This document shows positions 15,811 to 34,458 of a stretch of DNA of 45,599 bases, piece by piece. Made by a program: the position numbers and the translations under genes. The first letter of the stretch is position 1. Every line of letters begins with the position of its first letter. Origin of the DNA: Rikenellaceae bacterium (GTDB lineage: Bacteria; Bacteroidota; Bacteroidia; Bacteroidales; Rikenellaceae). The DNA lies in assembly GCA_030529085.1 (NCBI GenBank), contig JAUMXM010000001.1, positions 58,255 to 103,853 of the forward strand, written 5' to 3'. Below the pieces are notes generated by a model that had not been told where the DNA came from, did not search any database, and worked only from the letters and a program-made list of their open reading frames with translations.

Positions 15811-15829
15811 TAAATTAGTAGTAAGTGTG

Positions 15830-15857
15830 GCCCCGCATCTTTCGGTGTGGGGCTTTT
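15830..15857 (+). terminator. terminator of the GH2 gene
   Basis: An 8-bp stem with one G-T pair (15830-15837 with 15846-15853, eight-base loop) is followed by TTTT and a T-rich stretch. It separates the GH2 gene from the SusC operon. Confidence 0.75.
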
Positions 15858-15909: not shown

Positions 15910-15941
15910 TTTGGAAAATTAAGCAAAAAATGCGACCTTTG
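15910..15941 (+). promoter_or_regulatory. promoter of the SusC operon
   Basis: TTTG (15910-15913) and GACCTTTG (15934-15941) are 20 bp apart; the -7 has G instead of T at its first place. The leader to the first ATG is about 65 bases and holds a 6-bp hairpin with a GAA loop (15975-15980 with 15984-15989). Confidence 0.65.
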
Positions 15942-16012
15942 CACCGCTTTAATCGCGCGCGTATTTAAACGTGTACGTGCGAAGCACGTTAAGAGGCTGC
16001 GTGAAACGAGCA

Positions 16013-18988
16013 ATGAAGAGATTCAAAACCAAAATAATTTCTATGCAACACAAACTAATCAAATCCCTGCTTGCGGTGTTTATGACGCTGTGTGCTGTGG
16101 TCGCTCAGGCCCAGAATGCACAGGTTACCGTGAGCGGTGTGGTGACGGGGGCCGACATCAAAGAGCCGTTGATCGGCGTGGCCATCGTTACCGAGGCGAT
16201 GACGGGTGTTACGACGGGTCTCGATGGTGACTACACCATTCAGGCCGAGGCGGGCACCAAGCTCATCTTCCAGTACGTCGGCTACCAGACGGTCGAGTGG
16301 ACTGTACCTGCGGGTCAGGCTGCTGTGACCTACGATCTGGAGATGCAGACCGAATCGACGGCTGTCGAGGAGGTTGTGGTGATTGCTTACGGTGTTCGTA
16401 AGAAGGGCACGGTGGCAGGCTCCGTATCGACGGTGAAGGCCGAGAAGATTGAAAGTACCCCGACGGCAGCCTTCGATCAGGCGCTGCAGGGTCAGGTACC
16501 GGGTCTGACGGTTCTCTCGAACACGGGTGAGCCGAGTGCATCGGCTGTGATGACCATTCGCGGTACGAACTCGATTAACTCGGGTACGGCTCCCCTTTAC
16601 ATCTTGGACGGTGTGCCCATCTCGAGCAGCGACTTCAACACGATCAATCCTGCCGACATCGAGTCGTTGTCGGTTCTCAAGGATGCATCGTCGACCTCGA
16701 TCTACGGTGCTCGTGCTGCCAACGGTGTGATCGTGATCACGACCAAGCGCGGTCGTATGGCCGATCGCCCCAACATCGAGTTCCGCACCCAGGTCGGTAT
16801 TTCGCAGATTGCCCACGGTAATTGGGATTTGATGAACACCGCCGAGCGTATCCAGTACGAGAAGGAGATTGGTATGACCGCAGGTCAGAACTACAACCTC
16901 CTGAGCCGCACGAATATCAACTGGATGAAGGAGGTATTCAACTCGGCTGCCATGTTGCAGAGCTACGAGCTCTCGATTTCGGGTGCCGACGAGAAGACCC
17001 ACTACTACATCTCGGGTGGTTACTACAGCCAGGATGGTACGGCCATCGGCTCGTCGTTCGAGCGCTACTCGTTCCGTACGAATATCGAGCGCAAGGCTAC
17101 CGATTGGCTCAAGGTGGGTACCAACACGATGCTCAACTACCAGCTCATCAGCCAGGCCGACGAGGGTAACTACACGCTTGTGACCCCCATCTCGGCTGCT
17201 CGCTTCATGCTGCCCTACTACAGCCCCTATCGTGCCGACGGCTCGTTGGCTTCGGTGAATGATGGTTCGTGGAAGGGTATTGGTCAGAATCCGCTGGAGT
17301 GGCTGGAGAACAACCCCACAAACTATAAGAAGTATAAGATCATCTCGACCGTCTTTGCTGAGGCTACGCCGATCGAGGGTCTGACGATGCGTTCGCAGTT
17401 CAGCGTCGATTACGGCCACACGACCGGTTTCGGTGTGTCGTATCCGAGCTATGGTCCCAACCTGGGTCAGGGTAGCGCTTCGCGTTCGTCGACCGATAGC
17501 TATACGCTTACCGTAACCAACACGATCAACTACCGCTTTATGAAGGGGTTGGACCACTCGTTCAACTTCATGGTGGGCCAGGAGGGTATCGACTACCACT
17601 ACGAGGCCTTCAGCTTGATGAGCAAGGGTCAGAACAACGATAAGCTGACCAACATTTCGACCGGTACGCGCGTAACCTCGTGGAGCGATACGACCGACTC
17701 GGACTATGGTTTCCTCTCGTTCTTCGGTCGTGGTGAGTACAACTACAAGAACCGCTACTACTTCGAGGCTGCCGCTCGTGCCGATGCCTCGTCGCGTTTC
17801 GGTAAGTCGCGCCGTTGGGCAGGCTTCTGGTCGGTAGGTTTCATGTGGAACCTCCGCAACGAGAAGTTCATGGAGTCCTCGTCGCGCTGGCTGACCAACG
17901 CCCAGCTGCAGTTCTCGACCGGTACGTCGGGTAACTCATCGATCCCCAACTACGAGCACTTGGCGCTCATCGTCGGTGGTCTGGACTACACGGGTGCTCC
18001 GGGTGTAACGCTCGCGCAGCCCGGTAACGAGAACCTGGGTTGGGAGAAGCCTTGGACGACCAACTTCGCCCTCCACGCCGGCTTCTGGAATCGCCTCAAT
18101 GCCGATCTGGAGCTCTACTACAAGCGTACGTCGGATATGTTGATGGAGGTGCCGCAGGTGTCGTCGGATAAGGGCTTCGGCTACTTCTGGGACAACGTCG
18201 GTGAGATGGTCAACATGGGTGCCGAGCTTTCGCTTTCGGCCTCGCTGATCGCTACCGAGAAGTTCAACTGGATGGTTAATGCCAACATCTCGTACAACCA
18301 CAACGAGATCACTGAGCTCTACAACGGTGTTCAGGAGTACGAGCGTTCGAATACCAATACGAAGCTTGTTGTAGGTCACCCCCTCGGCGAGTTCTACATC
18401 AACCGTTATGCCGGTGTGAATCCCGCCAATGGTGATGCCCTCTGGTACACGAAGGATGGCGAGCTGACCAACGAGCTGCGCGACAGCGACAAGGTGCTGG
18501 TTGGCAAGAGCTACTTTGCCCCCTGGCAGGGTGGTTTTGGTACCGCACTTTCGTGGAACGGTCTTTCGGTTTCGGCTCAGTTCAGTTGGGTTGCCGACCG
18601 TTGGATGATCAACAACGACCGCTACTTCGACGAGTCGAACGGTCGCTTTGCAACCTACAACCAGTCGAAGCGTCTGTTGAACCGTTGGAAACAGCCGGGT
18701 GATGTAACCGACATTCCGCGTCACGGTGTCTATACGGAGTTCGACAGCCGCCTGCTGGAGGATGCTTCGTTCCTGCGCCTGAAGAATGTGATGGTGAGCT
18801 ACTCGCTGCCCGAGAAGTGGCTGCGCAAGACCCGCGTCTTTAGCTCGGCCCGTATCTATGTGCAGGGTCAGAACCTGCTGACCTTCACGAAGTTCTCGGG
18901 TCTCGATCCCGAGGGTACGTCGAATATCTATGCGGCGCAGTACCCCATGTCGCGCCAGTTCACCGCCGGTCTCGACCTTAAATTCTAA
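16013..18988 (+). CDS. SusC/RagA-family TonB-linked outer membrane transporter
   Basis: A 991-residue outer membrane channel. A signal peptide ends at AQAQ; the start may be 16013 or the ATG at 16043 (MQHKLIK), which gives a more typical signal. A carboxypeptidase-regulatory-like domain comes next (VSGVVTGADIKEPLIGVAIV region), then a TonB-box-like VEEVVVIAYG, a plug domain (with IRGTNSINSG and PLYILDGVPI), and a 22-strand type barrel that ends in an aromatic-rich strand with terminal Phe (LDLKF). Together with the SusD six bases downstream it forms a lidded importer for oligosaccharides or peptides. The protease in this operon favours peptides or glycopeptides; that is an inference. Codon use suggests high expression. 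Confidence 0.95.
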   Translation: MKRFKTKIISMQHKLIKSLLAVFMTLCAVVAQAQNAQVTVSGVVTGADIKEPLIGVAIVTEAMTGVTTGLDGDYTIQAEAGTKLIFQYVGYQTVEWTVPAGQAAVTYDLEMQTESTAVEEVVVIAYGVRKKGTVAGSVSTVKAEKIESTPTAAFDQALQGQVPGLTVLSNTGEPSASAVMTIRGTNSINSGTAPLYILDGVPISSSDFNTINPADIESLSVLKDASSTSIYGARAANGVIVITTKRGRMADRPNIEFRTQVGISQIAHGNWDLMNTAERIQYEKEIGMTAGQNYNLLSRTNINWMKEVFNSAAMLQSYELSISGADEKTHYYISGGYYSQDGTAIGSSFERYSFRTNIERKATDWLKVGTNTMLNYQLISQADEGNYTLVTPISAARFMLPYYSPYRADGSLASVNDGSWKGIGQNPLEWLENNPTNYKKYKIISTVFAEATPIEGLTMRSQFSVDYGHTTGFGVSYPSYGPNLGQGSASRSSTDSYTLTVTNTINYRFMKGLDHSFNFMVGQEGIDYHYEAFSLMSKGQNNDKLTNISTGTRVTSWSDTTDSDYGFLSFFGRGEYNYKNRYYFEAAARADASSRFGKSRRWAGFWSVGFMWNLRNEKFMESSSRWLTNAQLQFSTGTSGNSSIPNYEHLALIVGGLDYTGAPGVTLAQPGNENLGWEKPWTTNFALHAGFWNRLNADLELYYKRTSDMLMEVPQVSSDKGFGYFWDNVGEMVNMGAELSLSASLIATEKFNWMVNANISYNHNEITELYNGVQEYERSNTNTKLVVGHPLGEFYINRYAGVNPANGDALWYTKDGELTNELRDSDKVLVGKSYFAPWQGGFGTALSWNGLSVSAQFSWVADRWMINNDRYFDESNGRFATYNQSKRLLNRWKQPGDVTDIPRHGVYTEFDSRLLEDASFLRLKNVMVSYSLPEKWLRKTRVFSSARIYVQGQNLLTFTKFSGLDPEGTSNIYAAQYPMSRQFTAGLDLKF

Positions 18989-18994
18989 GCGCTT

Positions 18995-20539
18995 ATGAAG
19001 AGATTTTTGAATAATATCCGCATTACCGCGACGCTCCTGGCAGCTACGATGCTGCTCTCGACGTCGTGTCTTGACAAGGAGCCCGGCTCGGCAATTCCCG
19101 AGGCTGAGGCTATGCAGGACTTCAACGATGCCAAGCAGTTCCTGATTGGTATCTATGCCAATATGATGGGTGGTTCTCTGTGGAGTGGTTACCTGACGAT
19201 CTTGCCCGATTTGCAGGCCGATATGGTCTATGCTGTCGATGGCTACTCGAATGTCTATGGTGACATCTGGCAGTGGAACATCCGTCCTACGAATGCCGAG
19301 ATCGAGGCTGTTTATGGCTCGCTCTACATGGTGATTGCCAACTGTAACTTCTTCCTCGAGCGCATCGACGCCGTGATCGCCAAGCAGACCGATGATGCTG
19401 CTATCACGGAGCTCGATACCTACAAGGGTGAGGTTTATGCCATTCGTGCTCTCTGCTACTCGGAGTTGCTGAAGAACTATTGCAAGGCTTACGATCCCGC
19501 TACGGCGCAGAACGAGCTGGGTGTGGTGATCCGCACCAAGTACTCGGAGCCCGAGGAGCAGATTCGTGCTTCGCTCTACGACTCGTATCAGTTTGTGTTG
19601 GAGGATCTCCGCGAGGCTGAGGAGCGTCTGGATCCCGCCAACGACTGGTATTGCTACCTGCGTATGTCGCACGGTCTGGTGTGCGCTTTGCGTGCCCGCG
19701 TTGCCCTTAATATGCAGGATTGGGAGTCGGCCATCAGCTACTCGTCGAAGGTGATCGACCACCCGCACGATATCTTCGCACTCTCGAGCACGAATGTAAA
19801 CTACACCTCGACTTCGTCCTACTTCGACTATATGTGGGAGTATGACCTGGCTACGGAGGTGATCTGGCAGATTGGCTTTACGACCACGTCGTTTGGTGGT
19901 TCTTTGGGTTCGATCTTCCTGAACATTACGACCGACTACACTTATTTCTATCCCGACTACGTGCCTGCACAGTGGGTACTCGACCTCTACACCTCGGGTG
20001 ATGGTCGCTACGATGCCTACTTCCAGCAGGAGCGCACGGGTTATGCCCACGGCCTGACCTGGCCCCTCTTGGTGAAGTACTTCGGTAACCAGGACTTCAT
20101 CAATACGGCCAACATCTTCCAGGTATCGATGCCCAAGCCCTTCCGCTTGGCCGAGCAGTACCTGATTCGTGCCGAGGCCTACTGCCGTCAGGCTACGCCT
20201 AACTACACGGCTGCTTCGAAGGATATGGCTACGCTGCGCGCAGCTCGTCTTTCGTCGGGTGGTGCTATGACGCTGACGGCCGATAACTGCATCGAGCAGA
20301 TTGCCAACGAGCGCGTACGTGAGCTCTATATGGAGGGCTTCCGTCTGAACGACCTGAAGCGTTGGGGCAAGCTCTACAAGAACGGCGAGGGTTTCACGCG
20401 TAAGCCGCAGACCTTGTCGCTCGAGGAGGGTAGCTCGCTCTCGATCAAGATGGACAATCCGCTCTTCGTATGGCCGATTCCGCAGCACGAGATTGAGTCG
20501 CCCGGTTCGCAGATTCAGCCCAACGAAAGCAATTTGTAA
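18995..20539 (+). CDS. SusD/RagB-family surface lipoprotein
   Basis: A 514-residue lipoprotein that closes over the SusC channel and binds the ligand. The signal peptide ends in the lipobox STSC (Cys about 26), followed by LDKEPGS, with acidic residues that fit surface export. The tetratricopeptide-rich SusD fold is visible in helical pairs such as EVYAIRALCYSELLKNY and LRMSHGLVCALRARVAL. The C-terminal part has the usual RLAEQYLIRAEAY and ERVRELYMEGFRLNDLKRWG motifs. It ends in a typical PIPQHEI...NPN-like segment. The start codon lies six bases after SusC. Confidence 0.95.
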   Translation: MKRFLNNIRITATLLAATMLLSTSCLDKEPGSAIPEAEAMQDFNDAKQFLIGIYANMMGGSLWSGYLTILPDLQADMVYAVDGYSNVYGDIWQWNIRPTNAEIEAVYGSLYMVIANCNFFLERIDAVIAKQTDDAAITELDTYKGEVYAIRALCYSELLKNYCKAYDPATAQNELGVVIRTKYSEPEEQIRASLYDSYQFVLEDLREAEERLDPANDWYCYLRMSHGLVCALRARVALNMQDWESAISYSSKVIDHPHDIFALSSTNVNYTSTSSYFDYMWEYDLATEVIWQIGFTTTSFGGSLGSIFLNITTDYTYFYPDYVPAQWVLDLYTSGDGRYDAYFQQERTGYAHGLTWPLLVKYFGNQDFINTANIFQVSMPKPFRLAEQYLIRAEAYCRQATPNYTAASKDMATLRAARLSSGGAMTLTADNCIEQIANERVRELYMEGFRLNDLKRWGKLYKNGEGFTRKPQTLSLEEGSSLSIKMDNPLFVWPIPQHEIESPGSQIQPNESNL

Positions 20540-20563
20540 TACGTCTAAACTTTTGTGAGTGAT

Positions 20564-21478
20564 ATGACAAAATATATCTTATCGGCATGTGTAGCTTTCG
20601 TAGCAGCCTTCTCGCTGACGGCTTGCGACGAGGAGTACACGACCTATGCCGGTCCCGAGTATGTGATGTTCGCCGATACGCTTTCGACGAACATGGTCTT
20701 GAGCGATGCGGAGTACTTCTCCGTGCCCCTCTCGGCTACCGTAGCGTGCGACTACGATCGTACGCTGGCTGTGGAGATTCTCGACGAGGGCAGCAATGCC
20801 ATCGAGGGTCTGCACTACACCCTCTTATCGAACACGATTACCATCCCTGCAGGTAAACTCGCCGGCGAGGTGCGTGTGAAGGGTAACTACGAGAACATCG
20901 AGGCGAGCGATTCGCTGGGTTTCCGTATGCGTCTGGTGATGCCCGAGGCCCTGGAGTGGGATCTCTACAAGGAGTGGACCGAGACGAAGGTGGTGATGTA
21001 TAAGAGCTGCCCGTTCGATATCCATAACTTCACGGGCTGGTGTATGCTTACCTCGCTCTTGTTGTACGATTATCCGGGTACGAACCCCTTCTACCAGCGT
21101 CTGATCAAGACCGAGGCACACCCCACGGAGCCCAACACGGTTATCCTGCGTGAGGCCTTCTACGATGGTTACGATGTGACGATTCGCTTCCAGACGGATG
21201 ATCCGGCCAACCCGCTGGTTCTTATGGATGAGGATCAGGTGCTGAGCGACGAGGCTTCGGTCTTCGGCCAGGTTTTGGGCGATAACCACATCCTCGGTGC
21301 ATCGAGCCCCTACTACAACTCCTATTTTAACGCTTGTCAGTCGTTTGTCGAGCTTTGGATCTCGGTTTATGTCGAGGATCTGGGCAAGCCGATCGGTTCT
21401 GTCGGTCAGTACTACAACATCCTGGAGTGGGTGAGCGACGAGGAGGCCGAGCGTTTGCAGCGCGAGGAGGGCTTGTAA
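20564..21478 (+). CDS. surface lipoprotein, DUF4984/Calx-beta-like
   Basis: A 304-residue lipoprotein. The ATG at 20564 gives a clean signal (MTKYILSACVAFVAAFSLTAC) rather than the GTG nine bases earlier. After Cys come DEE residues. Residues about 25-125 form a beta-sandwich that resembles Calx-beta/DUF4843 domains (FSVPLSATV, GLHYTLLSNTITIPAGKLAGEV). The C-terminal half (130-300) has the pattern I recall for DUF4984 proteins next to SusCD pairs, without a catalytic motif. It is likely an accessory ligand-binding lipoprotein on the cell surface, in contact with SusCD. Confidence 0.72.
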   Translation: MTKYILSACVAFVAAFSLTACDEEYTTYAGPEYVMFADTLSTNMVLSDAEYFSVPLSATVACDYDRTLAVEILDEGSNAIEGLHYTLLSNTITIPAGKLAGEVRVKGNYENIEASDSLGFRMRLVMPEALEWDLYKEWTETKVVMYKSCPFDIHNFTGWCMLTSLLLYDYPGTNPFYQRLIKTEAHPTEPNTVILREAFYDGYDVTIRFQTDDPANPLVLMDEDQVLSDEASVFGQVLGDNHILGASSPYYNSYFNACQSFVELWISVYVEDLGKPIGSVGQYYNILEWVSDEEAERLQREEGL

Positions 21479-21496
21479 AGATTGAGCAACGAAACA

Positions 21497-23923
21497 ATGA
21501 AGAAGACTATGAAATATTACATTTTCCGTTTGATGGCCTCGGTGGCACTCCTCTCGACGCTCTTTTGCAGCTGCTCGGAGGATGAAGAGCTGACCGCTCC
21601 CCACTTCCCGGAGCAGGTGACGGCTACGGTTGCCGCAGGTGACATCTACACGCTCCACATCGAGCCGAATACGGCTTGGACCCTCTCGCTTTCGACCGAG
21701 ACGGCGACCTATTTCTACCTCTTGGACGAGGGTTCGAAGGTCTATAAGATGCGTGGTGCAGCCGGTTCGTACGATGTTCAGATCGGTGTTGCCGATATTG
21801 AGGAGTTCGACACGGAGCGTAGCTGCGAGGTGAGCCTTACGCTGGGCGAGGGTTCGCTGCAGGAGACGCGCACGATTGCGATCCTGACGCGTGGCACGAT
21901 TAACCGCGATCTGCAGGTTTTTGCCGCAGCAACCTTTGATGAGGAGCTCTCCGACTTTGCGAAGGACGAGACCGAGAACTACATCTACGGCGAGCAGCCT
22001 GTTGCTGCCATCGACCTGGTGCAGAACATGAACGATGTCTATATTCACCGCATCGCTGTCGAGGCTAACCATCCTTGGGCTTTTGCCGGTGAGATTCCCG
22101 CTTGGCTCACGCCCAATGTGACGGTTGCCGATAAGGGCCGCACGGAGGTCTACCTGCGCACGGCACGTACGGCTTACCCCTTCGAGGATACGGTTGCCAA
22201 GATCTGCTTTAGCGATATGACCGTGGAGCACAATCCGACGCTGACCGATGTCGAGCTCGCGATTGCAATGCCCGGTTGCGCCGACTATGTGAGCCTGCAG
22301 CTGGGTGGTACGTTGAACTTCAACGACCTCGGCCAGTACAACAACGATGGCTCGTATGTTGATTCGGGTGCCATTGGTTGGGTACATGCTCCTATGGGCG
22401 CGCGCGTATATAAAGTAGCGGTAGAGAATGGCTACTGCTACGCTTCGGAGGAGAAGACCGCCTGGTTTACCGTAACCGAGGAGTTCGATGCCGAGGCTAC
22501 ACCCGAGGCTGGTATCTGGTCGCGTAAGGTGACCGTGAAGCCCGAGGCCAACACCGATGCAGCCCGCGAGGGTATGATCGTGGTTGTTCCGCAGTCAAAG
22601 GCTTCGGCTATCAAGGATCCCGATGCGGATCTCTTCAACGCCGATGGTACGGCGCTGCGTGCAGAGTATGCTGCCTACAGCTCGAAGATTCAGCAGGATG
22701 CTTATGTGAATGTCGATGAGCTGTCGCCCATCGAGATCGCTTCGCTTGAGGCACTCCAGGCTTATGGTGGTGATTTCGCTGTCCTGGAAGAGAACAGCTG
22801 GATCTGGTCGGAGTTCGATACCGAGCACGCTTTCCGCATGACCTATCCCTCGAACGACGCTTCGTATGGTGGTGATCTGAAGATCAACAAGCCTTTCGAT
22901 CGCGTGGAGATTGTCGGCTTCGACGGTAAGACGCTCCTCCAGACCAACGCTTACGACGGTACGGCGATGGGTGAGGATAAGAGCTGGGTAACGGTTCAGG
23001 CCAGCCCCTACTCGATTGCTACGCAGCGTCGCGTAACCTGCCGCTTGGGTGAGGAGTTCCCGAACACCTGCCCGGGTGATATGGGTGAGAATGAGGCCTT
23101 CCTCCTCTTCAAGGATGCCGAGGGCAATATTCTGGCGCTGATCTACTTCGTTCTTGACGAGAACTATAAGCCCGGTGGTGGTTCGGATTCCGATAGCGCC
23201 ATCTCTTTCGTTGATGCTTCGGTTGCTGCCCAGTGCGGTGCTAAGCTGGCCGAGATCGTGGAGGGTGACGCTGATTACAGCGCCGAGGATGCCGCTATGG
23301 GTGTTCTCCAGTTCCGCCTGACTTACACGAAGGCTGCTGCTTCGGAGCAGGTTTACCTGAATGTTCCCGATTATAAGATGGTTATCCCGCAGCAGGATTG
23401 GTTGTCGGTTGATGAGCCGGGCAACGGTACGATCCGCATCTCGATGGATACCGAGAGTGGTACGGGCTATGTAAACCTCTACAACGACCAGTGGATCGTA
23501 TTTGCTACGATTGTCTGCGTGGCCGACATCAAGGCCGATGACGCTTACGATCCGAACGCTCCCGTTACCTTTGTCGATTACGAGGCTGCCCAGGCATTGG
23601 GTGCACAGCTCTTTGCCATCCCCGCTACCGACGATGCTTACGACAAGGAGCTTGGCTCGAAGGGTGTAAATCAGTTCCGCCTGATTCTCCCGAAGGCCGG
23701 TTCGGTGGCTCTGCGTGTGCCGAACTACTACTTCGGTTACCAGTACTCGGGTGGTTGGCTTTCGTTCACCCCCGATTGGCCGGAGAATGGTGCTACGGAG
23801 GTGACCATCACGATGACGTCGACGGGTAGTTCGCGCCAGTCGACCTTCCTGACGCTCTACGAGAACATGAGTGATGGTACGATTTCGGCTCAGATCCAGT
23901 GCATCCTGACCAACGAAGAGTAG
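21497..23923 (+). CDS. large surface lipoprotein with tandem C-terminal repeats (DUF5003-like)
   Basis: An 808-residue lipoprotein. The ATG at 21497 is preferred to an upstream TTG; ATG 21509 is also possible. The signal ends in FCSC followed by SEDEE. The first 100 residues form a BACON-like beta domain (EPNTAWTLSLSTETATY). Most of the middle has beta-rich modules without known catalytic residues. At the C-terminus two copies of a domain of about 110 residues follow each other (about 570-675 and 690-805), each beginning FVD and running through GA-L-x-x-I, then QFRL, then a WLS/WLSFTP core. I recall similar proteins as DUF5003; that name is not verified. Probably a surface binding scaffold. 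Confidence 0.68.
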   Translation: MKKTMKYYIFRLMASVALLSTLFCSCSEDEELTAPHFPEQVTATVAAGDIYTLHIEPNTAWTLSLSTETATYFYLLDEGSKVYKMRGAAGSYDVQIGVADIEEFDTERSCEVSLTLGEGSLQETRTIAILTRGTINRDLQVFAAATFDEELSDFAKDETENYIYGEQPVAAIDLVQNMNDVYIHRIAVEANHPWAFAGEIPAWLTPNVTVADKGRTEVYLRTARTAYPFEDTVAKICFSDMTVEHNPTLTDVELAIAMPGCADYVSLQLGGTLNFNDLGQYNNDGSYVDSGAIGWVHAPMGARVYKVAVENGYCYASEEKTAWFTVTEEFDAEATPEAGIWSRKVTVKPEANTDAAREGMIVVVPQSKASAIKDPDADLFNADGTALRAEYAAYSSKIQQDAYVNVDELSPIEIASLEALQAYGGDFAVLEENSWIWSEFDTEHAFRMTYPSNDASYGGDLKINKPFDRVEIVGFDGKTLLQTNAYDGTAMGEDKSWVTVQASPYSIATQRRVTCRLGEEFPNTCPGDMGENEAFLLFKDAEGNILALIYFVLDENYKPGGGSDSDSAISFVDASVAAQCGAKLAEIVEGDADYSAEDAAMGVLQFRLTYTKAAASEQVYLNVPDYKMVIPQQDWLSVDEPGNGTIRISMDTESGTGYVNLYNDQWIVFATIVCVADIKADDAYDPNAPVTFVDYEAAQALGAQLFAIPATDDAYDKELGSKGVNQFRLILPKAGSVALRVPNYYFGYQYSGGWLSFTPDWPENGATEVTITMTSTGSSRQSTFLTLYENMSDGTISAQIQCILTNEE

Positions 23924-23960
23924 TAAAAGTGAATGAGTGAAAACTGAATACGTTAGAACG

Positions 23961-26597
23961 ATGAAATTATATAGAATTTTCGCAACAATGCTGCTGGCTC
24001 TCTGTGCGCCGCTGCTGATGGTGAGTTGTTCGGACGACGATGGCGTCGACAACCGCGAGCACGGCTACGGATATCTCCAGTTCAAGCTCTACAAGGAGGC
24101 TTCTGCACCCCAGTCGCGTGGTGTGCAGACCCCTCTGGAGTCGCTCACCGATGCTCACAAGGTGAAGGTGACGCTGCTCTACGGCGAGACGACCATCTCG
24201 CAGACGCTCAACCTGCAGTCGGCCGAGGAGGATGTAGCTGCTTACGGTCTGCGTACCGATAAGATTAAGCTGCTCACCGGTACCTACGAGTTGGCTACCT
24301 ACACGCTCTACGACAGCAACGATAACGCTATCTTCAGCGGCGCTCCCATCGGGGAGCGTCAGCTGGAGGTCGTAATGGGCGGCCTTACGATGTACGACAT
24401 TGCCGTTCCCGTAACGCCGCGTGGTCGTGCTACCTTCTCGATCAAGAAGGATCTCTCGGCCATCACGCGTGGTGTGGTGCGCGAGTACACCTTCGACGAG
24501 ATTGCCTTCGTAACGCTTAACGTGCAGCACACGGCCAACCTGCAGCAGACCAAGATCGAAAAGCTGCCCGCCGAGTTCTCGATTCACTTCAACGAGGAGG
24601 ACGACGTGGAGGATGGCTACCAGACCTCGTCGCTTAAGTGCGACTCGCTGGTTTGGATGATGGCCGGTGACTACAAGCTCCTCTCCTACGAGCTCTTCGA
24701 CAAGGGCAAGGTGTTGCTCGAGTCGAACACGAAGCCCCAGGAGTTGACCTTCACGGTGGCCGATAACACCACCACCGAGGTGGCTGTTCCCGTTGCCCTG
24801 CATGCGGCTGACGAGTACCTGAAGGACTACTACGCACTCTATGAGATTTGGCAGAGCCTCGATGGTCCGAATTGGTACTACGAGGGTGAGGATTACAACG
24901 TGGGTTGCAACTGGAATTTCAACTGCGATCCCGACCTGTGGGGTAACCAGCCCGGTGTGCAGATGCACCCCAACGGCCGTATTGCCCGCCTCGACCTGAG
25001 CGGCTTCGGCTTCAGCGGCGATCTTTCGCCCGCCATCGGTCAGCTTACGGAGCTTGTTGAGCTCTACCTCGGTACCCACAACGATGCCCAGATGAGCTAC
25101 GATCCGTCGCTCGATCTCTCGAAGTCGTTGGCCGAGCGTCAGCAGAACCGCCTGGAGAACCACAAGACCTACCTCCGCACGATTCACCCCGCAACGCAGA
25201 TGTCGGAGCCTTGCGCCCGCGCCTTGGCCGAGCACAACATCACGATTCCCGAGACGGCGCTCTACGCCACCCACAAGGAGTCGGATCTGATCGATGTGAA
25301 GACGGGTGCCATGCGTAAGATCGTGAAGCACGATACGACCCACGGTACGATCAACAACGGTCTGAAGTCGATTCCCGCCGAGATTGGTAACCTGAAGAAG
25401 CTTGCTTCGTTCTTCATTGCCAACTCGCTGATCGAGTCGCTGCCTGAGGAGATTGCCCAGCTGGAGAGCTGCACCGATTTCGAGGTTTACAACTGTCCGA
25501 AGATGACCTCGTTCCCGATGGCTGTTGCACAGATGCCCGAGCTGATTTCGGTCAACCTGGCAAACAACCGCCAGTGGTCGGCAGAGGAGGTTCTCAAGGG
25601 CCTCGATGCGCTGGCTACCGGTGCTTCGAAGGAGAAGATTCAGATTCTCTATATGCGCGAGAATCAGCTCGAGGAGCTGCCCATCTCGTTGGCTGGTATG
25701 CAGAAGCTCGGTCTGTTCGACGTAGCTTACAACAAGATTAAGAAGGTTCCCGCTTTCGGTAAGAAGTTCGCCCCGATCCAGCTCTATCTCGACCACAACC
25801 AGATCGAGGAGCTGCCTCGCGACGAGGAGGGTTACTTCTGCGCTTACGAGGATGTCGAGACCTTCTCGGTGACCTTCAACAAGCTCAAGAAGTTCCCCAA
25901 CATCTTCTCGGCAAAGAGCATCTATACGATGACCTCGGTAGACTTCTCGGGTAACGAGATTACGGGCTTCGAGGGCGAGGAGGATGGTACCTTCAAGGGT
26001 ATCAACGTACAGACGCTGACCCTCTCGCAGAACTACAACCTCAAGAAGTACCCCGCAGCTTTGTGGAAGGCCGGCTCGTTCGTCTCCTACATCGTACTGC
26101 GTGCTTGCGGCCTCGAGGAGTTCCCCGAGGGCTCGTTCTCGGGTGAGACGACCGTAAACCTCGTGTCGCTCGACCTCTCGTACAACAACCTCTCGGATAT
26201 GCCCCGCGAGTTCCACGCCGGCAACATTCCCTACCTCTACGGTTTGGATATGTCGTTCAACCGCTTCTCGAAGGTCCCCTTCGAGCCGCTCGATGCCGCT
26301 GGTCTTACGGTCTATGCACTCCGCTCGCAGCGCGATGCCGACGGTAAGCGTTGCTTGAAGCAGTGGCCTACGGGTATCTATCAGCACACGGGTCTGCGCG
26401 GCCTCTACCTCGGCTCGAACGACCTGCGTGAGGTAGATGATACGATTTCGACCCTCTGCTACTACCTCGACATCAGCGATAACCCGAACATTGTGTTCGA
26501 CGCTTCGGATATCTGCTATGCTTGGCAGGTAGGTGCCTATATCCTGATCTACGACAAGTGGCAGAATATCAAGAACTGTGATCCGATGCTCTACTAA
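23961..26597 (+). CDS. leucine-rich-repeat surface lipoprotein (DUF4458-like N-terminus)
   Basis: An 878-residue lipoprotein; the ATG at 23961 gives the signal ending in LMVSC, followed by SDDDG. Residues 25-290 hold two Ig-like modules of the type I recall as DUF4458 (YGYLQFKLYKEAS, then IAVPVTPRGRATFSI). From about 300 a capped LRR domain begins (LYEIWQSLDGPNWYYEG, then RIARLDLSGFGFSGDLSP), and LRRs of about 23 residues run to the end (LNLANNR, LPISLAGMQKLGLFDVAYNKIKKVP). LRRs bind proteins, so a host or dietary protein or another subunit is the likely partner. TRG follows the second Ig-like domain start (AITRGVV). Confidence 0.8.
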   Translation: MKLYRIFATMLLALCAPLLMVSCSDDDGVDNREHGYGYLQFKLYKEASAPQSRGVQTPLESLTDAHKVKVTLLYGETTISQTLNLQSAEEDVAAYGLRTDKIKLLTGTYELATYTLYDSNDNAIFSGAPIGERQLEVVMGGLTMYDIAVPVTPRGRATFSIKKDLSAITRGVVREYTFDEIAFVTLNVQHTANLQQTKIEKLPAEFSIHFNEEDDVEDGYQTSSLKCDSLVWMMAGDYKLLSYELFDKGKVLLESNTKPQELTFTVADNTTTEVAVPVALHAADEYLKDYYALYEIWQSLDGPNWYYEGEDYNVGCNWNFNCDPDLWGNQPGVQMHPNGRIARLDLSGFGFSGDLSPAIGQLTELVELYLGTHNDAQMSYDPSLDLSKSLAERQQNRLENHKTYLRTIHPATQMSEPCARALAEHNITIPETALYATHKESDLIDVKTGAMRKIVKHDTTHGTINNGLKSIPAEIGNLKKLASFFIANSLIESLPEEIAQLESCTDFEVYNCPKMTSFPMAVAQMPELISVNLANNRQWSAEEVLKGLDALATGASKEKIQILYMRENQLEELPISLAGMQKLGLFDVAYNKIKKVPAFGKKFAPIQLYLDHNQIEELPRDEEGYFCAYEDVETFSVTFNKLKKFPNIFSAKSIYTMTSVDFSGNEITGFEGEEDGTFKGINVQTLTLSQNYNLKKYPAALWKAGSFVSYIVLRACGLEEFPEGSFSGETTVNLVSLDLSYNNLSDMPREFHAGNIPYLYGLDMSFNRFSKVPFEPLDAAGLTVYALRSQRDADGKRCLKQWPTGIYQHTGLRGLYLGSNDLREVDDTISTLCYYLDISDNPNIVFDASDICYAWQVGAYILIYDKWQNIKNCDPMLY

Positions 26598-26601
26598 ACA
26601 G

Positions 26602-28242
26602 ATGAAAGCTATGAAGAAATATATTTGGATGATGCTCCTCGCAACGGCCTTCGTAGGTTGTTCGAGTGATGACAACACGGTTGATTTTTCGACCGACCGT
26701 GATCTGATTCAGGTCACCGAGGTTGGTGGCACGGAGCTGGTACAGATTGTAGCCGAGGGCGAGTGGACCGCTTCGACCGAGGATGCATGGATCGCCATCT
26801 CGCCCGCCAACGGTCGCGGTACGACGACCTGTAAGTTTTTGATCGACTCGGCCAAGACGGCCGATGCACGTCGTGCTACGGTGCGTATTCGCAGCAACGA
26901 GAGTTGGGAGTCGAAGGATATCACCGTCGAGCAGACGGGTTATCCCTACCTGATCGAGGTGGATAAGGAGTCGATCGAGGTTTCGAATTACGCCAAGAGC
27001 GAGCAGCGTACCTTCGATGTACGTGTACGCTCGAATGTCGATTTCGACGTGAAGATTCCGACCGATGCCTCGTGGCTTTCGAACGAGAAGTATTCGCTCA
27101 AACTCACGAGCGGTATTCGTCCGCGTGAGGTGGTAGTGCGCTTCAATTGGGACATCAACACCCGTCCCGAGGAGCGTCTGGCTGCCATTGAGTTCACCCC
27201 CAAGCAGGATGTGACGCTGAGCCGTCAGCAGGGCGTGAACGTCAAGCAGCAGGCTGCCGAGCCCATCGAGGAGGGTACGCGTGCCGGTGACTCGGTGGCG
27301 CTGTTGAGCATTGCTCGTACGCTCGATATGATGGAGTCGACGTGGGATAATGGTGAGCCGATGAACCTCTGGCAGGGCGTAACGCTCTGGGAAGAGGGTA
27401 TGGAGGGCTGCACCCCCGAGAAGGTGGGTCGCGTGAAGTATGCCCAGTTCTTCCTCTTCTATACCAAGGAGCCGCTGCCCTTCGAGGTACGCTACCTGAC
27501 GGCTGCCGAGGAGCTCTACATCTTCAGTAACGCCAACTCGTTCCTCTACAACCTCTCGACGGGTGAGTACATCTCGGAGCTGACGCAGCTGAAGCGTCTG
27601 ACCATCGGTGCTTATGGTCTTACCGAGCTGCACCCCTCGTTCACGAATTTGAAGAACCTGGAGTATCTGAACATCTGCTCGAACAACTTCCAGACGGTGC
27701 CCGACATCCTCACGAAGGAGAACTTCCCCAACCTGCGTGCCCTGGTGATGAACGCCAACCAGCGTGCTGCGGTCTATGACCTGAGCAACACGACGCGCAC
27801 CGACCTGGGTGGTTTCATCGACGAGGAGACCTTCCCGGTAGATCTGCTGAAGTGGGATCTCGATACGCTGGTGCTGTCGGTGAACCACCTGCAGGGTGAG
27901 CTGCCCGACCTGGCCGACGATCCCGATTTCCCCTACTACACGCAGCAGGAGATCGACGCTGTCGATACGCTTCCGCAGTACCTCGTGGATAACCGCATCA
28001 AGAAGGTAATGCCCTCGACGAAGCTCTTTGCCATCAACGCAAACCACTTCTACGGTAAATTGCCCGATTGGTTGCTCTACCATCCGGCACTCGACCTGTG
28101 GTTCCCCTATAGCCTGGTCTTCCCGCAGGATGGTCGCGCCAGCAATGGCCGTGCCGCGATGTTCGAGAACGAGCCGATGAATATGAACTACTATTACGAT
28201 ATCTATACGACCAAGACGAAGCCTACGGGCACGCCTGAATAG
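26602..28242 (+). CDS. BACON-LRR surface lipoprotein
   Basis: A 546-residue lipoprotein. Start may be 26602 or the ATG at 26611; the signal ends AFVGC, followed by SSDD. A BACON domain is clear at about 30-115 (VAEGEWTASTEDAWIAISP, then IRSNESWESKDITVEQTG); a second BACON-like domain spans about 118-215. After a linker with Gln and Glu a short LRR block follows (YGLTELHPSFTNLKNLEYLN) and a Leu-rich tail. BACON domains often bind mucin or glycoprotein or act as spacers. It starts four bases after the previous LRR gene and is a partial parallel of it. Confidence 0.8.
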   Translation: MKAMKKYIWMMLLATAFVGCSSDDNTVDFSTDRDLIQVTEVGGTELVQIVAEGEWTASTEDAWIAISPANGRGTTTCKFLIDSAKTADARRATVRIRSNESWESKDITVEQTGYPYLIEVDKESIEVSNYAKSEQRTFDVRVRSNVDFDVKIPTDASWLSNEKYSLKLTSGIRPREVVVRFNWDINTRPEERLAAIEFTPKQDVTLSRQQGVNVKQQAAEPIEEGTRAGDSVALLSIARTLDMMESTWDNGEPMNLWQGVTLWEEGMEGCTPEKVGRVKYAQFFLFYTKEPLPFEVRYLTAAEELYIFSNANSFLYNLSTGEYISELTQLKRLTIGAYGLTELHPSFTNLKNLEYLNICSNNFQTVPDILTKENFPNLRALVMNANQRAAVYDLSNTTRTDLGGFIDEETFPVDLLKWDLDTLVLSVNHLQGELPDLADDPDFPYYTQQEIDAVDTLPQYLVDNRIKKVMPSTKLFAINANHFYGKLPDWLLYHPALDLWFPYSLVFPQDGRASNGRAAMFENEPMNMNYYYDIYTTKTKPTGTPE

Positions 28243-28261
28243 TGTAAGGAGAGCATAGAAT

Positions 28262-30298
28262 ATGAAAAAGACCTATTTATATATCCTCGTAGCGCTGGCT
28301 GCCCTGACGGTGGTAAGCTGCGCCAAGGAGGAGGTGGTTCTTCCCAACGAGGAGCCGCAGGAGGAGCAGCTCAGCCCCTTTGCCGAGGGTGAGTTGTTCG
28401 TGAAGTTTGCCCCCGAGGTAGTTGATACCATCGAGGAGCAGGCCTTGACGCGCAGCGGTGCCCTGACGCGCAGTGGTGTGCCGACTGTAGATGAGATTTT
28501 GGAGCTGATCGACGGCTACGAGCTCGAGCGCGTCTTCCCCGTGGATGCCATGAACGAGGAGCGTACGCGTGAGGCGGGTCTGAACCGCTGGTATGTGGTA
28601 CGCTTCGGTGCCGAGCACTCGGCCGAGGAGGTTGCTTTGCGCCTTCAGAAGCTGGGTGAGGTACAGAAGATCGACTTCAACCGTACGATCAAGCGTGCCT
28701 ATACGGGCAAGGCTACTCCGCTGACGATGGAGCAGCTTCAGCGCATGACGGCTCCCGCAACGCGCGGTGTTGCGATGAACGACCCCCTGCTGCGCATGCA
28801 GTGGAACATGATCAACGACGGTTCGCTCCACACGCAGGGCGACGTTGCGAAGTTCATCAAGGATTCGGACGTGCAGGTCGAGCAGGCTTGGGAGCGTTCG
28901 ATGGGTGATGAGTCGGTGATTGTGGCTGTCCTCGACGAGGGCGTTTGCTTCGATCACCCCGACCTGAAGGACAACATGTGGATCAACCCTGCCGAGATTT
29001 TTAACTCGCACAAGGATAACGATGGCAACGGTTATGCCGGTGACTACTACGGTTACAACTTCGTGACCGATTCGGGTGTTATCTCGACCGATGCTTTCGC
29101 CGATTCGGGTCACGGCTCGCACGTGGCCGGTGTGATCTCGGCTACGAACAACAACGGCATCGGTATCAGCTCGATTGCCGGTGGTGATGGCCAGAAGGGT
29201 GGTGTGAAGATTATGTCGTGCCAGATCTTCTCGGGCAACGTAGGTAGCAACGGCTTGGCTGTGGTTCGCGCCATCAAGTATGCTGCCGACAACGGTGCTG
29301 TGGTGCTCCAGTGCAGCTGGGGTTATGTGTCGGGTTCGGCCAACATCTACGATTGGGGTGCTCAGGGCTTCGCTTCGCAGGAGGCTTGGGAGGCCGGTGC
29401 TCCGCTCGAGAAGGAGGCTTTGGACTACTTCACCCACACGGCAGGTTCGCCCAACGGTCCGATCGATGGCGGTATCGCTGTCTTCGCTGCCGGTAACGAG
29501 TCGGCCAACATGGCCGGTTATCCGGGTGCTTCGGAGGACTATGTATCGGTAGCTGCTACGGCTGCCGACTTCACGGCTGCCGTCTATACGAACTACGGTC
29601 TCGGCGTTCGCATTTCGGCTCCGGGTGGTGACCAGGATTACTACTACGACTATATCGATCCCGCCAACAACCACGGTACGGTTGGTTGCATCCTCTCGAC
29701 CCTGCCTCTGACCGTCAGCACGAGTGGCTACGGCTATATGGAGGGTACTTCGATGGCTTGCCCCCACGTTTCGGGTGTTGTGGCGCTCGGTATCTCGTAT
29801 GCAGCCCAGCAGCGTCGTCACTTCAAGGCTGACGAGCTGAAGGAGATGCTCTACGCTACGGCTACGCCGATCGACAGCTACCAGGCCGGCATGAAGCGTT
29901 ATGCGCGCTACACGGCCGAGATTGGCACGACGCAGCCGATGCAGATGGATCTGAATGGTTACCGCGGCAAGATGGGTAACGGTCAGGCCAACGCTGCAGC
30001 CTTCCTCGCTGCCATCGACGGCCAGGGTGTCGAGCTCGTCTTCCCGAACCTCTACATCGCGATGGGTGGTATTTCGGTAGTTTCGCCGGCCCGCTATTTC
30101 GAGGGTGGTGACGAGATGACCTACACGGTTTCGATCGAGAATACGGAGGTTGCCTCGTTCCGCCGAATGGAGCAGGTGTTCTACTTCCAGGGTCTGAAGA
30201 CCGGCTCGACGAAGGCCACTGTGACGGCTTCGAATGGTGCCTCGCAGGAGTTCGTCATCACGGTACGCCGTGCTGCCGACGATAACGGTTGGTTGTAG
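28262..30298 (+). CDS. S8 family (subtilisin-like) serine peptidase, surface lipoprotein
   Basis: A 678-residue lipoprotein protease. The signal ends VVSC, followed by AKEE. An inhibitor-like prodomain spans about 25-190. The catalytic triad is D225 (VLDEGVCFDHP), H284 (GHGSHVAGV) and S497 (GTSMACPHVSG), with oxyanion N412 (AAGNES). A C-terminal Ig-like or BACON-like domain spans about 595-678. The propeptide has a short tandem TRSGALTRSG (about 63-73), and ATRGVAMNDP (about 165) lies just before the mature domain begins, both plausible Arg processing sites. As a lipoprotein beside SusCD it is the probable enzyme that cuts captured protein for import. Substrate preference cannot be read from sequence. 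Confidence 0.93.
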   Translation: MKKTYLYILVALAALTVVSCAKEEVVLPNEEPQEEQLSPFAEGELFVKFAPEVVDTIEEQALTRSGALTRSGVPTVDEILELIDGYELERVFPVDAMNEERTREAGLNRWYVVRFGAEHSAEEVALRLQKLGEVQKIDFNRTIKRAYTGKATPLTMEQLQRMTAPATRGVAMNDPLLRMQWNMINDGSLHTQGDVAKFIKDSDVQVEQAWERSMGDESVIVAVLDEGVCFDHPDLKDNMWINPAEIFNSHKDNDGNGYAGDYYGYNFVTDSGVISTDAFADSGHGSHVAGVISATNNNGIGISSIAGGDGQKGGVKIMSCQIFSGNVGSNGLAVVRAIKYAADNGAVVLQCSWGYVSGSANIYDWGAQGFASQEAWEAGAPLEKEALDYFTHTAGSPNGPIDGGIAVFAAGNESANMAGYPGASEDYVSVAATAADFTAAVYTNYGLGVRISAPGGDQDYYYDYIDPANNHGTVGCILSTLPLTVSTSGYGYMEGTSMACPHVSGVVALGISYAAQQRRHFKADELKEMLYATATPIDSYQAGMKRYARYTAEIGTTQPMQMDLNGYRGKMGNGQANAAAFLAAIDGQGVELVFPNLYIAMGGISVVSPARYFEGGDEMTYTVSIENTEVASFRRMEQVFYFQGLKTGSTKATVTASNGASQEFVITVRRAADDNGWL

Positions 30299-30329
30299 AA
30301 AAAATCGGTGACGAAATTTTTTGGACACT

Positions 30330-31139
30330 ATGTACGTAACAAAAATGGGAAAGTGGTTGCTGGCTATGTTGCTTGTCATGATGGCAGGCAATGTAGTCGC
30401 GCAGCTGCAACTCATTCCGCAGGAGAAGTTGGATAGCGTGCGTTCACCCAAGGTGCTCGCCTCGGTTCCGATCTATTTTGCGGAGGGCACAATGCTCAAT
30501 ATGGGTGGCATCGAGGAGAATGCCGGTGTGTGGACGAAGACGGTAACGTGGACCAATGTGGGTCCCGAGCCGATGGTTGTGACGCGCATCGCTTCGACGT
30601 GTGGCTGCCTGAAGGGAGAGTTTCTACCTCGCCCCGTGATGCCCGACTCGACGGCCACGATTCGCGTGCGCTACAACCCGAAAGGACACCCGGGTGCGGT
30701 CTACCAGCGACTGTTTGTCTACACGAACAGCTCGGCCGACCACCCCTCGGTTGTCTTGACCCTGTGTGGTGAGGTGTATGGCGCTCCCGAGGTTGTCGAT
30801 GAGTATCCCGCATCGCTCGGTGCATTGCATCTGCGCAGTACCGAGGTGCGTTTTACGGCCGGTGATAAGCCGCAGGAGCAGGTGTTGCTCTGCGTAAATG
30901 GAGGTCGTGAGCCTTTGCGTCTTTCGACCGACACGCTGCTCACCTCGCCGGCATTGCGCATCGTCTGTCGTCCGCAGCGTTTGGCTCCGGGTGCCAAGGG
31001 CGAAATTGTGGTGCGATTCGACCCCTCGAAGGCCGTCTTTATCAATCCCACGATGCCGCTCTATATCGGAGGCTTGCGCTTGGCGCCGCGTCAGCGTGCC
31101 TTGACCGTACATGTTGGTACCAAACCCAAGAACGAATAA
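30330..31139 (+). CDS. DUF1573 domain protein
   Basis: A 269-residue exported protein. The ATG at 30330 is preferred to a TTG at 30321; ATG 30345 (MGKWLL) is also possible. The signal ends near VVAQ without a lipobox. Two beta domains follow. The first carries the DUF1573 motif (ASTCGCLKGEF, about 94-104), with two Cys and a TIRVRYNPKGHPG segment; the second is similar but weaker. DUF1573 folds like an Ig or MSP domain and may assist surface or periplasmic assembly. It sits after the protease, perhaps as a periplasmic partner of the complex. Confidence 0.8.
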   Translation: MYVTKMGKWLLAMLLVMMAGNVVAQLQLIPQEKLDSVRSPKVLASVPIYFAEGTMLNMGGIEENAGVWTKTVTWTNVGPEPMVVTRIASTCGCLKGEFLPRPVMPDSTATIRVRYNPKGHPGAVYQRLFVYTNSSADHPSVVLTLCGEVYGAPEVVDEYPASLGALHLRSTEVRFTAGDKPQEQVLLCVNGGREPLRLSTDTLLTSPALRIVCRPQRLAPGAKGEIVVRFDPSKAVFINPTMPLYIGGLRLAPRQRALTVHVGTKPKNE

Positions 31140-31154
31140 AAAAAATAGAAATAT

Positions 31155-31619
31155 ATGAAAAAGAACTGGTTTTATCTGATGATGATGCTCTTCGCCGTTG
31201 CCTTTGTAGGTTGCAACGACGATGATGAGACCTACGTGGAGCCGCAGCTCGATGTGACGATCCACAACCTCGCAGGTGAGTGGATGCTCAAGAGCTGGAG
31301 CAATGGTCAGGAGCTGACCGAGGGTACCTATCTCTACCTCAATTTGGTGCGTAACGATGCTACCTTCAAGCTCTACGACAACCTCAATAGCTTCCAGGCG
31401 GTGCTGACCACTGGTCGTTTTGCCCTCGCAACCGATCCCGAGTTGGGCGTTGTGATTCGTGGTGAGTACGACTACGGTGTGGGCGAGTGGAACCACCGCT
31501 ATATCATCACGAGCCTGACGGCTTCGGAGATGGTGTGGGTGGCCAAGGACGATACATCGGACGTATCGGTCTATGTCCGCGCGGAGATTCCTGCCGAGGT
31601 GATTGCCGAGGCTGAGTAG
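31155..31619 (+). CDS. small lipocalin-like surface lipoprotein
   Basis: A 154-residue lipoprotein, last gene of the operon. The signal ends FVGC, followed by NDDDE. The mature part has the short beta-strand order of a lipocalin-like or DUF5004-like barrel: the GEWMLKSW motif (about 43-50), then strands with LYLNLVRN and YRIVITSL-like elements. Such proteins bind small hydrophobic ligands or close a complex. No catalytic residues are seen. Assignment to the exact family is uncertain. Confidence 0.65.
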   Translation: MKKNWFYLMMMLFAVAFVGCNDDDETYVEPQLDVTIHNLAGEWMLKSWSNGQELTEGTYLYLNLVRNDATFKLYDNLNSFQAVLTTGRFALATDPELGVVIRGEYDYGVGEWNHRYIITSLTASEMVWVAKDDTSDVSVYVRAEIPAEVIAEAE

Positions 31620-31657: not shown

Positions 31658-31692
31658 AAAAGAGGTTGGGTAGTGATTACCCAACCTCTTTT
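31658..31692. terminator. bidirectional terminator between the SusC operon and hutI
   Basis: A perfect 15-bp stem (31658-31672 with 31678-31692) with loop GTGAT. T tracts lie on both sides, so it can end the SusC operon on the plus strand and the hut operon on the minus strand. Confidence 0.9.
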
Positions 31693-31710: not shown

Positions 31711-32955
31711 TTACCCGCGCCAGATTTCACCGCGCAGAATCGTGTGACGAATCAGGGGTGTGGAGTAGGCGTAGGTGAAGAACTCGGGCGACGAGAGGGG
31801 CTTGGTGAGGAAGAAGTTGGCCACTTTGCCCACCGTGATCGAGCCGAAATCGTGGCTCAGACCCATTGCGGCGGCACCGTTGAGTGTCGCGGCGTGGAGT
31901 GCCTCGGTCGGGGTCATGCGCATCTGCGTAGCGGCAAGTGCCATCACCATGCGCATATTACCCGAGGGGGACGATCCGGGGTTGTAATCCGAGGCGAGCG
32001 CTACGGCCAACCCTGCCGAAATCATCTTGCGTGCGGGCGGATAGCTCATGCCGAGGAAGAAGGCGGCACCGGGCAACATCGTGGGCATTGTCATCGCTTG
32101 TTGCAAGGCCTCGATTTCGGCTTCGCCCATGCGCTCGAGGTGATCTACCGACAGGGCTCCCTCCTCGACGCCCAGCTGCACACCACCCGAGATAGCCAGC
32201 TCGTTGGCGTGGATCTTGGCCTTCATCCCATACTCGGCACCGCGACGCATGATGCGGCGTGTCTGCTCGATTGTGAAGAAGCCCTGATCACAAAAGACAT
32301 CGACAAAGTCGGCCAGATTCTCCTTGGCTACGGCGGGAATCATCTCCTCGCAGACCACGTCGACATACTCCTCTTGGCGACCGATGTAGTTGCGTGCTAC
32401 GGCGTGTGCGCCGAGGAAGGTGGCGCGAATCTCGATCGGCTCGCTTTGGCGCAGACGACGAATCACACGCAACATCTTCAGCTCATCCTCGGTCGAGAGG
32501 CCATAGCCGCTCTTGATCTCGACCAGACCCGTGCCCATCCGCATAATTTCGTGCAGACGTTCGCGCGCCGCCTCGTAGAGCTCCTCTTCGGTGGCTTCGT
32601 GCAGGCGGTCGGCCGAATTAAGAATGCCGCCGCCACGGCGAGCAATCTCCTCGTAGCTCAGGCCGTGAATCTTATCAAGAAACTCCTGCTCGCGGCTGCC
32701 GGCATAGACCAGGTGGGTGTGTGAATCACAGAACGAGGGGAAGAGTGTTCCCCCCTCGGCATCCAGCACCTCGTCGAAGGGCTCCGTCTCGTCAAGTTCG
32801 CTCATCGACCCAAACGCTGCAATGCGCCCATCCTCGGCGATGAGGTAGCCCTCGTCGAGACGACCCAATCGATCCATCTCGGCTCCGGCGATGCGCTCAC
32901 GAGCTGCGGTGTCGATGCCGACAATTGTGCCGATATTTTTTACAAGCAATCTCAT
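31711..32955 (-). CDS. hutI: imidazolonepropionase
   Basis: HutI opens 4-imidazolone-5-propionate to N-formimino-L-glutamate, the third step of histidine breakdown. It has 414 residues and the amidohydrolase fold. The metal ligands H79 and H81 are in CDSHTHLVYAG; further ligands are in KIHANE (about 245) and DHLERM; the catalytic Asp is in ALASDYNPG. Its ATG overlaps the TGA of hutH (ATGA at 32952-32955), so translation is coupled. It is the last gene of the operon. Confidence 0.96.
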   Translation of the reverse strand: MRLLVKNIGTIVGIDTAARERIAGAEMDRLGRLDEGYLIAEDGRIAAFGSMSELDETEPFDEVLDAEGGTLFPSFCDSHTHLVYAGSREQEFLDKIHGLSYEEIARRGGGILNSADRLHEATEEELYEAARERLHEIMRMGTGLVEIKSGYGLSTEDELKMLRVIRRLRQSEPIEIRATFLGAHAVARNYIGRQEEYVDVVCEEMIPAVAKENLADFVDVFCDQGFFTIEQTRRIMRRGAEYGMKAKIHANELAISGGVQLGVEEGALSVDHLERMGEAEIEALQQAMTMPTMLPGAAFFLGMSYPPARKMISAGLAVALASDYNPGSSPSGNMRMVMALAATQMRMTPTEALHAATLNGAAAMGLSHDFGSITVGKVANFFLTKPLSSPEFFTYAYSTPLIRHTILRGEIWRG

Positions 32956-34436: not shown

Positions 34437-34458
34437 CGTTTTCCAAGTAGGTTTTGTG

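Follow-up and report, generated by a model that had tools for sequence, protein, structure and literature searches.

Surface protein harvest by commensal Bacteroidales is far less worked out than glycan use. Glycan 'utilisomes' are described as stable complexes of SusCD with lipoproteins and enzymes (PMC7618045), and oligopeptides are found bound in the structures of RagAB and BT2263-64 (PMC7782687). The RagA residues N893-F898 are reported to contact the peptide substrate, to be shared by every RagA type and to be lacking from SusC, and the same 2025 paper asks whether RagAB is partnered by surface protein-binding molecules and peptidases, either free or attached (PMC11817032). The locus described here is a nine-gene SusCD operon within a 45,599-nucleotide stretch of DNA (the window) that covers positions 58255-103853 of its contig, from a 1.9 Mb, 85% complete assembly of an Alistipes-like gut bacterium. 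The operon probably encodes a RagAB-type importer of peptides that comes with a surface protease and protein-binding lipoproteins of its own, and it is a genetic candidate for an arrangement of RagAB, surface binder and peptidase. By analogy, it may be read as the protein counterpart of the glycan utilisome.

The operon and its RagA-type transporter

Nine open reading frames, all on the plus strand, occupy positions 16043-31619 of the window and are flanked by candidate transcription signals:

15829-15854: terminator-like hairpin preceding the operon (consensus match only)
15910..15941, +: candidate Bacteroidales-type promoter, one mismatch (consensus match only)
16043..18988, +: gene 1, SusC, a RagA-type TonB-dependent transporter with NNDRYF (profile matches, structure comparison, alignment)
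18995..20539, +: gene 2, SusD/RagB-type lid lipoprotein (profile matches, structure comparison)
20564..21478, +: gene 3, DUF4984 lipoprotein with weak DUF4843 similarity (profile matches)
21497..23923, +: gene 4, fast-evolving lipoprotein with a BACON-like N-terminal region in relatives and three similar C-terminal segments
23961..26597, +: gene 5, lipoprotein with two DUF4458 stretches and leucine-rich repeats (LRR) (Pfam)
26602..28242, +: gene 6, lipoprotein with BACON domains and LRR (Pfam)
28262..30298, +: gene 7, S8 subtilase lipoprotein with Peptidase_S8_N and the residues D225, H284, N412 and S497 (Pfam, alignment)
30321..31139, +: gene 8, DUF1573 protein, start uncertain (30321, 30330 or 30345) (Pfam, translation)
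31155..31619, +: gene 9, small Lipocalin_4-like lipoprotein (Pfam)
31658..31692, +: terminator-like hairpin 3' of gene 9 (consensus match only)

An earlier sequence-only reading of this DNA had named SusC and SusD, two LRR lipoproteins, a repeat-bearing lipoprotein, an S8 protease, a DUF1573 protein and a small barrel, and this set is confirmed. Its description of nine genes on one strand with gaps of 4-37 bases is also borne out, as the measured gaps fit that range: from gene 1 to gene 7 they are 6, 24, 18, 37, 4 and 19 bases, with 15 before gene 9 (signal-peptide ATGs taken as starts). For the DUF1573 gene, the preceding gap is 22 bases if translation starts at TTG 30321, 31 if at ATG 30330 and 46 if at ATG 30345.

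The transporter pair belongs to the SusCD/RagAB type. SusC matches TIGR04056 (787 bits), TIGR04057, PF13715, PF07715 and PF00593, and the adjoining SusD matches PF07980 and PF14322. The closest solved structure of SusC is RagA (589 bits), followed by the dextran SusC 8aa4 (384) and the BT2261-64 SusC (119), and that of SusD is RagB by a small margin (61 bits, the next being 51). Residues 873-878 of the RagA chain, or 893-898 if a signal peptide of 20 residues is added, read NNDRYF when counted on the printed alignment; the window SusC carries the identical NNDRYF at this segment, and the dextran SusC is without it. The pattern NND[RH][YF][FY] is present in all 80 aligned operon SusCs, the window included, and in none of the 12 other full-length SusCs of the same genome. 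The 79 operon SusCs besides that of the window, which comprise 73 from the 80 loci described below (7 being dropped as cut or broken) and 6 further ones, read NNDRYF in 69 cases, NNDRYY in 5, NNDRFY in 4 and NNDHYF in 1. This pattern offers a simple candidate sequence marker for peptide-type SusCs.

A DNA pattern for NNDRYF was also tried as a genome marker and rejected: it gave 34 matches in 33 of the 295 genomes of the order and its reversed control gave 39, so that the pattern alone stands at background. Among the 30 matches whose reading frames were determined, six lie in SusC genes, of which four belong to this operon type (window, G258, G078 and G182) and two to stand-alone SusCD pairs (G189 and G105); one of the four remaining matches sits on the operon contig of G121. 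A longer DNA pattern matched the window only, because the flanking residues vary. The stand-alone SusCD-sized gene pairs, in two genomes other than that of the window and perhaps nearer relatives of RagAB, are as follows:

L185, 9186-13970: gene pair with INNDRYF in SusC
L186, 10713-15201: gene pair with INNDRYF in SusC

Conservation of the gene set and its protease

The S8 protease is a subtilase in which Asp225, His284, Asn412 (oxyanion) and Ser497 are kept in all 70 aligned operon copies, the window included. It carries a lipoprotein signal and is the only S8 protease found in the 85% complete assembly. It is also the sole enzyme encoded by the operon, as the sequence-only reading had stated, and no glycan-degrading enzyme or carbohydrate-binding module of the kind that would define a polysaccharide utilisation locus was matched above cut-off by Pfam in the nine genes. 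Toxin, immunity and secretion domains were likewise not seen in the nine genes by Pfam.

The arrangement of the operon is widely kept. A scan of genome contigs with gene 3 gave 162 relatives, and the best 80 of these were examined; they are the closest matches and do not represent the other 82. The nearest relatives by gene 3 (identity up to 76%) are Rikenellaceae/Alistipes genomes, many from ruminant guts. Gene order and strand are kept in all 80 loci for the genes that each fragment can show, which argues that the arrangement is not due to chance. All nine genes are clean in 50 loci and present with broken frames in 1 more, and the other 29 end early at a fragment end, with 0-285 bases remaining past the last gene seen; two of these also start inside the operon. 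The same nine genes in the same order occur in G258, G008 and G368, which belong to two other families. Similarly, all 20 family genomes examined have the S8, DUF1573 and lipocalin genes downstream of gene 3; at least four of these genomes are also among the 80 loci, so that not all are independent.

The gene 3 family DUF4984 reaches half of the genomes sampled in the family (125 of 250) and 7 of the 393 sampled across the order. DUF4458 is found in 8 of these 393, including all seven with DUF4984. Within 30 same-genus genomes, drawn from the top of the DUF4984-positive and DUF4984-negative family lists, it is found in 10 of 10 positive and 0 of 20 negative genomes. The operon set is gained or lost as one unit.

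Within the set, the rates of divergence differ. In the 50 full loci, the median identities of genes 1 to 9 to the window are 71, 60, 58, 27, 55, 52, 58, 33 and 46%. Conservation is highest in SusC, as would suit a system whose core function is uptake, and the protease (58%) is about as conserved as SusD (60%). Gene 4 is the outlier and evolves fastest, at 27% against 52-71% for genes 1-3 and 5-7, and its product varies between 547 and 824 amino acids in the full loci. The window member has no Pfam match above cut-off, BACON included, whereas 13 of 36 aligned gene 4 members match BACON. Its segments 380-560, 560-690 and 690-808 are alike (E of 1e-10 and 1e-15 between neighbours and 4e-5 between first and third), by a rough profile comparison built from rows of the same alignment. 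The position of gene 4 is that of a putative surface binding protein. Solved-structure searches gave no useful match for genes 3, 4 and 9, and gene 9 is barely above the Pfam cut-off for Lipocalin_4 (24.0 bits against 22.4).

Lipobox-type signal peptides are seen by inspection in genes 2-7 and 9. By a simple rule they are present in 50, 49, 50, 50, 50, 50 and 49 of the 50 full loci for genes 2, 3, 4, 5, 6, 7 and 9, in 22 for the DUF1573 gene and in 3 for SusC. After the lipobox cysteine, gene 4 reads C-SEDEE, gene 5 C-SDDDG and gene 9 C-NDDDE, acidic starts which we take to resemble the surface-export signal of Bacteroidetes.

The nine genes are likely to form a single transcript. The sequence-only reading had proposed one promoter and one terminator; candidates are present at both ends, as consensus matches only. 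The Bacteroidales promoter consensus used is -33 TTTG / -7 TAnnTTTG, and 21 of the 69 sequences 5' of SusC contain a strict match, whereas simple shuffles yield 0.38 on average. Terminator-like hairpins (13 in the full stretch against 11.4 in shuffles) and sigma-70-like promoters (6 against 8.3) are no more frequent than in shuffles, and the hairpins flanking the operon are hence consensus matches only. A palindrome, ACGTGC-GAA-GCACGT, is located at about 15970-15995 within the presumed 5' leader. Rfam and transfer RNA scans of the window gave no matches.

Proteases of this kind also occur with other partners. The PF16361 family was rejected as an operon marker, since it is present in 10 of 10 operon-positive but also in 13 of 20 operon-negative same-genus genomes. 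From 43 PF16361 matches outside the operon, 20 stretches of 18-20 kb holding 21 of them were examined. SusC, SusD, S8 and a lipocalin-like gene are collinear on one strand in 10 of these 20 contexts, which make up a second protease-bearing SusCD arrangement in Alistipes-like genomes (L188, L190, L191, L193, L195, L196, L198, L200, L203 and L205). In nine of the ten (not seen in L196), a gene of 767-1060 amino acids lies between SusD and S8; it is divergent (27-41% identity between loci) and gave no Pfam match above cut-off in the four scanned. The SusC of this arrangement is 27-29% identical to the operon SusC in the eight compared, and the NND segment is absent in the eight checked. A lipocalin-like gene adjoins the protease on the same strand in 12 of the 20 contexts and on the opposite strand in one more. 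Of the twelve, the seven scanned with Pfam all match Lipocalin_4, four of them passing the curated cut-off and three falling short of it. A BLAST match in L189 proved fimbrillin-like and was not counted. The recurrence with different SusCD pairs implies that protease and small barrel form a recurrent module. In 9 of the 20 contexts, no SusC accompanies the PF16361-type protease gene within the 18-20 kb examined.

Two further features flank the operon:

13027-15810, +: GH2 beta-galactosidase-like gene, upstream
31714-38167, -: convergent histidine-utilisation (hut) cluster

The GH2 gene was rejected as a member of the locus: of the 58 loci whose upstream stretch exceeds 3 kb, only 4 have it, and these are close relatives. 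The hut cluster encodes an amidohydrolase (probable imidazolonepropionase), a histidine ammonia-lyase type protein, a urocanase and a formiminotransferase-cyclodeaminase. It was rejected as part of the system and is a local feature: among the matches listed, only 5 of the 125 operon genomes have HutH near gene 3, at a distance of about 12-13 kb, and hut genes occur in 2 of 20 downstream flanks.

Proposed function and its alternatives

The sequence-only reading had proposed peptide uptake by analogy with RagAB, and this is supported as the most probable reading by RagA and RagB as closest solved relatives, by NNDRYF and by the intact S8 residues. Gene content, conserved order, the RagA-type SusC, the protease residues and the lipoprotein signals are read directly from the sequences. 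The substrate, surface location and complex formation would follow those of RagAB, BT2263-64 and the glycan utilisomes. At the cell surface, the LRR and BACON lipoproteins and the gene 4 product would capture a protein or glycoprotein. The lipid-anchored S8 protease, once its N-terminal domain is released as a putative propeptide, would cleave the captured protein beside the transporter. The SusD/RagB lid would then shut over the oligopeptides and SusC would import them with TonB energy, through its RagA-like NNDRYF, and peptidases encoded elsewhere would complete the digestion. The SusCD core probably bears the DUF4984 protein as a small accessory, and the DUF1573 and lipocalin-like proteins probably assist folding, anchoring or control of the protease. 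We infer the order of these steps, as well as the roles of genes 3, 8 and 9.

A more elaborate version is possible but, taken as a whole, doubtful. In it, a SusC2D2 complex would form a 'peptide utilisome' with the S8 protease, gene 4 and the LRR/BACON receptors on its rim, so that few peptides escape to neighbours; the S8 and lipocalin-like pair would be a transferable module that has joined two or more distantly related SusCD lineages; the small barrel would be a protease inhibitor or chaperone; and gene 4 would vary with the captured protein or with phage or antibody pressure. Small barrel inhibitors encoded beside proteases provide an analogy for the lipocalin-like protein.

Several points weigh against peptide import by a protease-equipped RagAB-type system. 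Most studied SusCs import glycans. The similarity of SusD to RagB is low, the contact role of NNDRYF comes from one paper, and the segment may mark common ancestry with RagA rather than the substrate. The hut cluster, as a local feature, is lost as support. Moreover, a protease-free version of the locus is found in G121, G078 and G182, which lack S8, DUF1573 and lipocalin genes beside the others:

L022, 5785-18857: protease-free locus
L023, 1697-15010: protease-free locus
L024, 6640-18254: protease-free locus

These loci combine genes 1-3 with a BACON lipoprotein gene, DUF4458/LRR and additional LRR genes, and their SusC retains NNDRYF. In G121 and G078, the two annotated, the last gene encodes a third LRR protein weakly similar to DUF4458; in L022 and L023, such a third LRR/DUF4458-like lipoprotein takes the place otherwise expected for S8, DUF1573 and lipocalin. 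Elsewhere in their genomes, G121 and G182 have PF16361 and G078 does not, and at least one protease-free genome thus seems to be without this protease family. Three distant genomes without the protease indicate that it is not obligatory for the SusCD-DUF4984-LRR set. Finally, a mutant of BT_0212, the S8 counterpart by annotation in Bacteroides thetaiotaomicron, is reported among several protease mutants that still cleaved EspB (PMC6282197), a result which shows only that BT_0212 is dispensable for that target.

The protease might instead cut glycosylated protein, with SusCD importing glycopeptides, as proposed for the BT4240-50 mucin locus. BACON domains have been proposed to bind carbohydrate or mucin, which favours such a system; however, the BT4240-50 peptidase is M60-like and not S8, neither a glycosidase nor a carbohydrate-binding module is matched above cut-off in the operon, the upstream GH2 gene is so rarely linked, and SusC bears the RagA segment, all of which make this unlikely. 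That the protease serves to mature or turn over the lipoproteins of its own operon, while SusCD imports something else such as a glycan, a cofactor or a single nutrient, appears more improbable. The three genomes with a protease-free set and the nine contexts of family proteases without SusC would suit it, but no nine-gene locus of sufficient length lacks the protease, its conservation nearly equals that of SusD, and family proteases accompany a second SusCD type.

An adhesion or competition apparatus, in which host or bacterial surfaces are bound by LRR and BACON proteins and cut by the protease, with uptake secondary, is the least probable of all and would be surprising. Host proteins can be ligands of BspA-type LRR lipoproteins in Bacteroidetes, and gene 4 diverges fast, yet Pfam shows no toxin, immunity or secretion domain in the nine genes and SusC is the most conserved of them.

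Comparison with known systems

Among solved structures, RagAB of Porphyromonas gingivalis is nearest to both SusC and SusD, and its NNDRYF is identical to that of the window. It imports peptides cleaved by gingipains (PMC11817032), whereas here the same operon also encodes a DUF1573 protein, an S8 protease and five more lipoproteins. BT2261-2264 of B. thetaiotaomicron resembles the operon in combining SusCD with accessory proteins, namely two small lipoproteins, and in its case the ligand is an oligopeptide (PMC7782687). Its SusC matches much less well (119 bits), and operon gene 3 is without a useful match in the PDB. We know of no protease in the BT2261-2264 complex.

The levan and dextran utilisomes of B. 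thetaiotaomicron share with the operon a SusCD core, a binding lipoprotein and a surface enzyme from one locus (PMC7618045). As described there, they act on glycans, use a glycoside hydrolase and have four outer-membrane components; the operon has a protease instead and up to eight such components if all its lipoproteins sit in the outer membrane.

A counterpart by annotation is BT0207-0213 of B. thetaiotaomicron, where BT0207-08 (SusD, DUF4984) and BT0211-13 (BACON, S8, DUF1573) match genes 2-3 and 6-8 in order (PMC10434189). This likeness is by annotation only, and two intermediate genes are not named in the table concerned. In that expression table, the values beside the fold changes (0.084-0.57, taken as P) are not significant (PMC10434189). 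No assigned function for a locus of this type was found in the open literature, subscription papers being mostly not covered. This agrees with the sequence-only reading, which mentioned similar sets in Bacteroides with no assigned role; among the papers searched, the B. thetaiotaomicron counterpart appears only in the expression table and a protease-mutant screen. The annotated counterpart lies in a tractable species, and the BT_0212 mutant has already been made (PMC6282197).

The BT4240-50 mucin locus of B. thetaiotaomicron likewise combines a surface peptidase, SusCD and a surface binding protein. It encodes an M60-like metallopeptidase, glycosidases and CBM32 (a carbohydrate-binding module), in contrast to the S8 protease and the lack of carbohydrate enzymes in the operon (PMC11992087). 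SusCD loci with M60-like peptidases are already known (PMC11992087).

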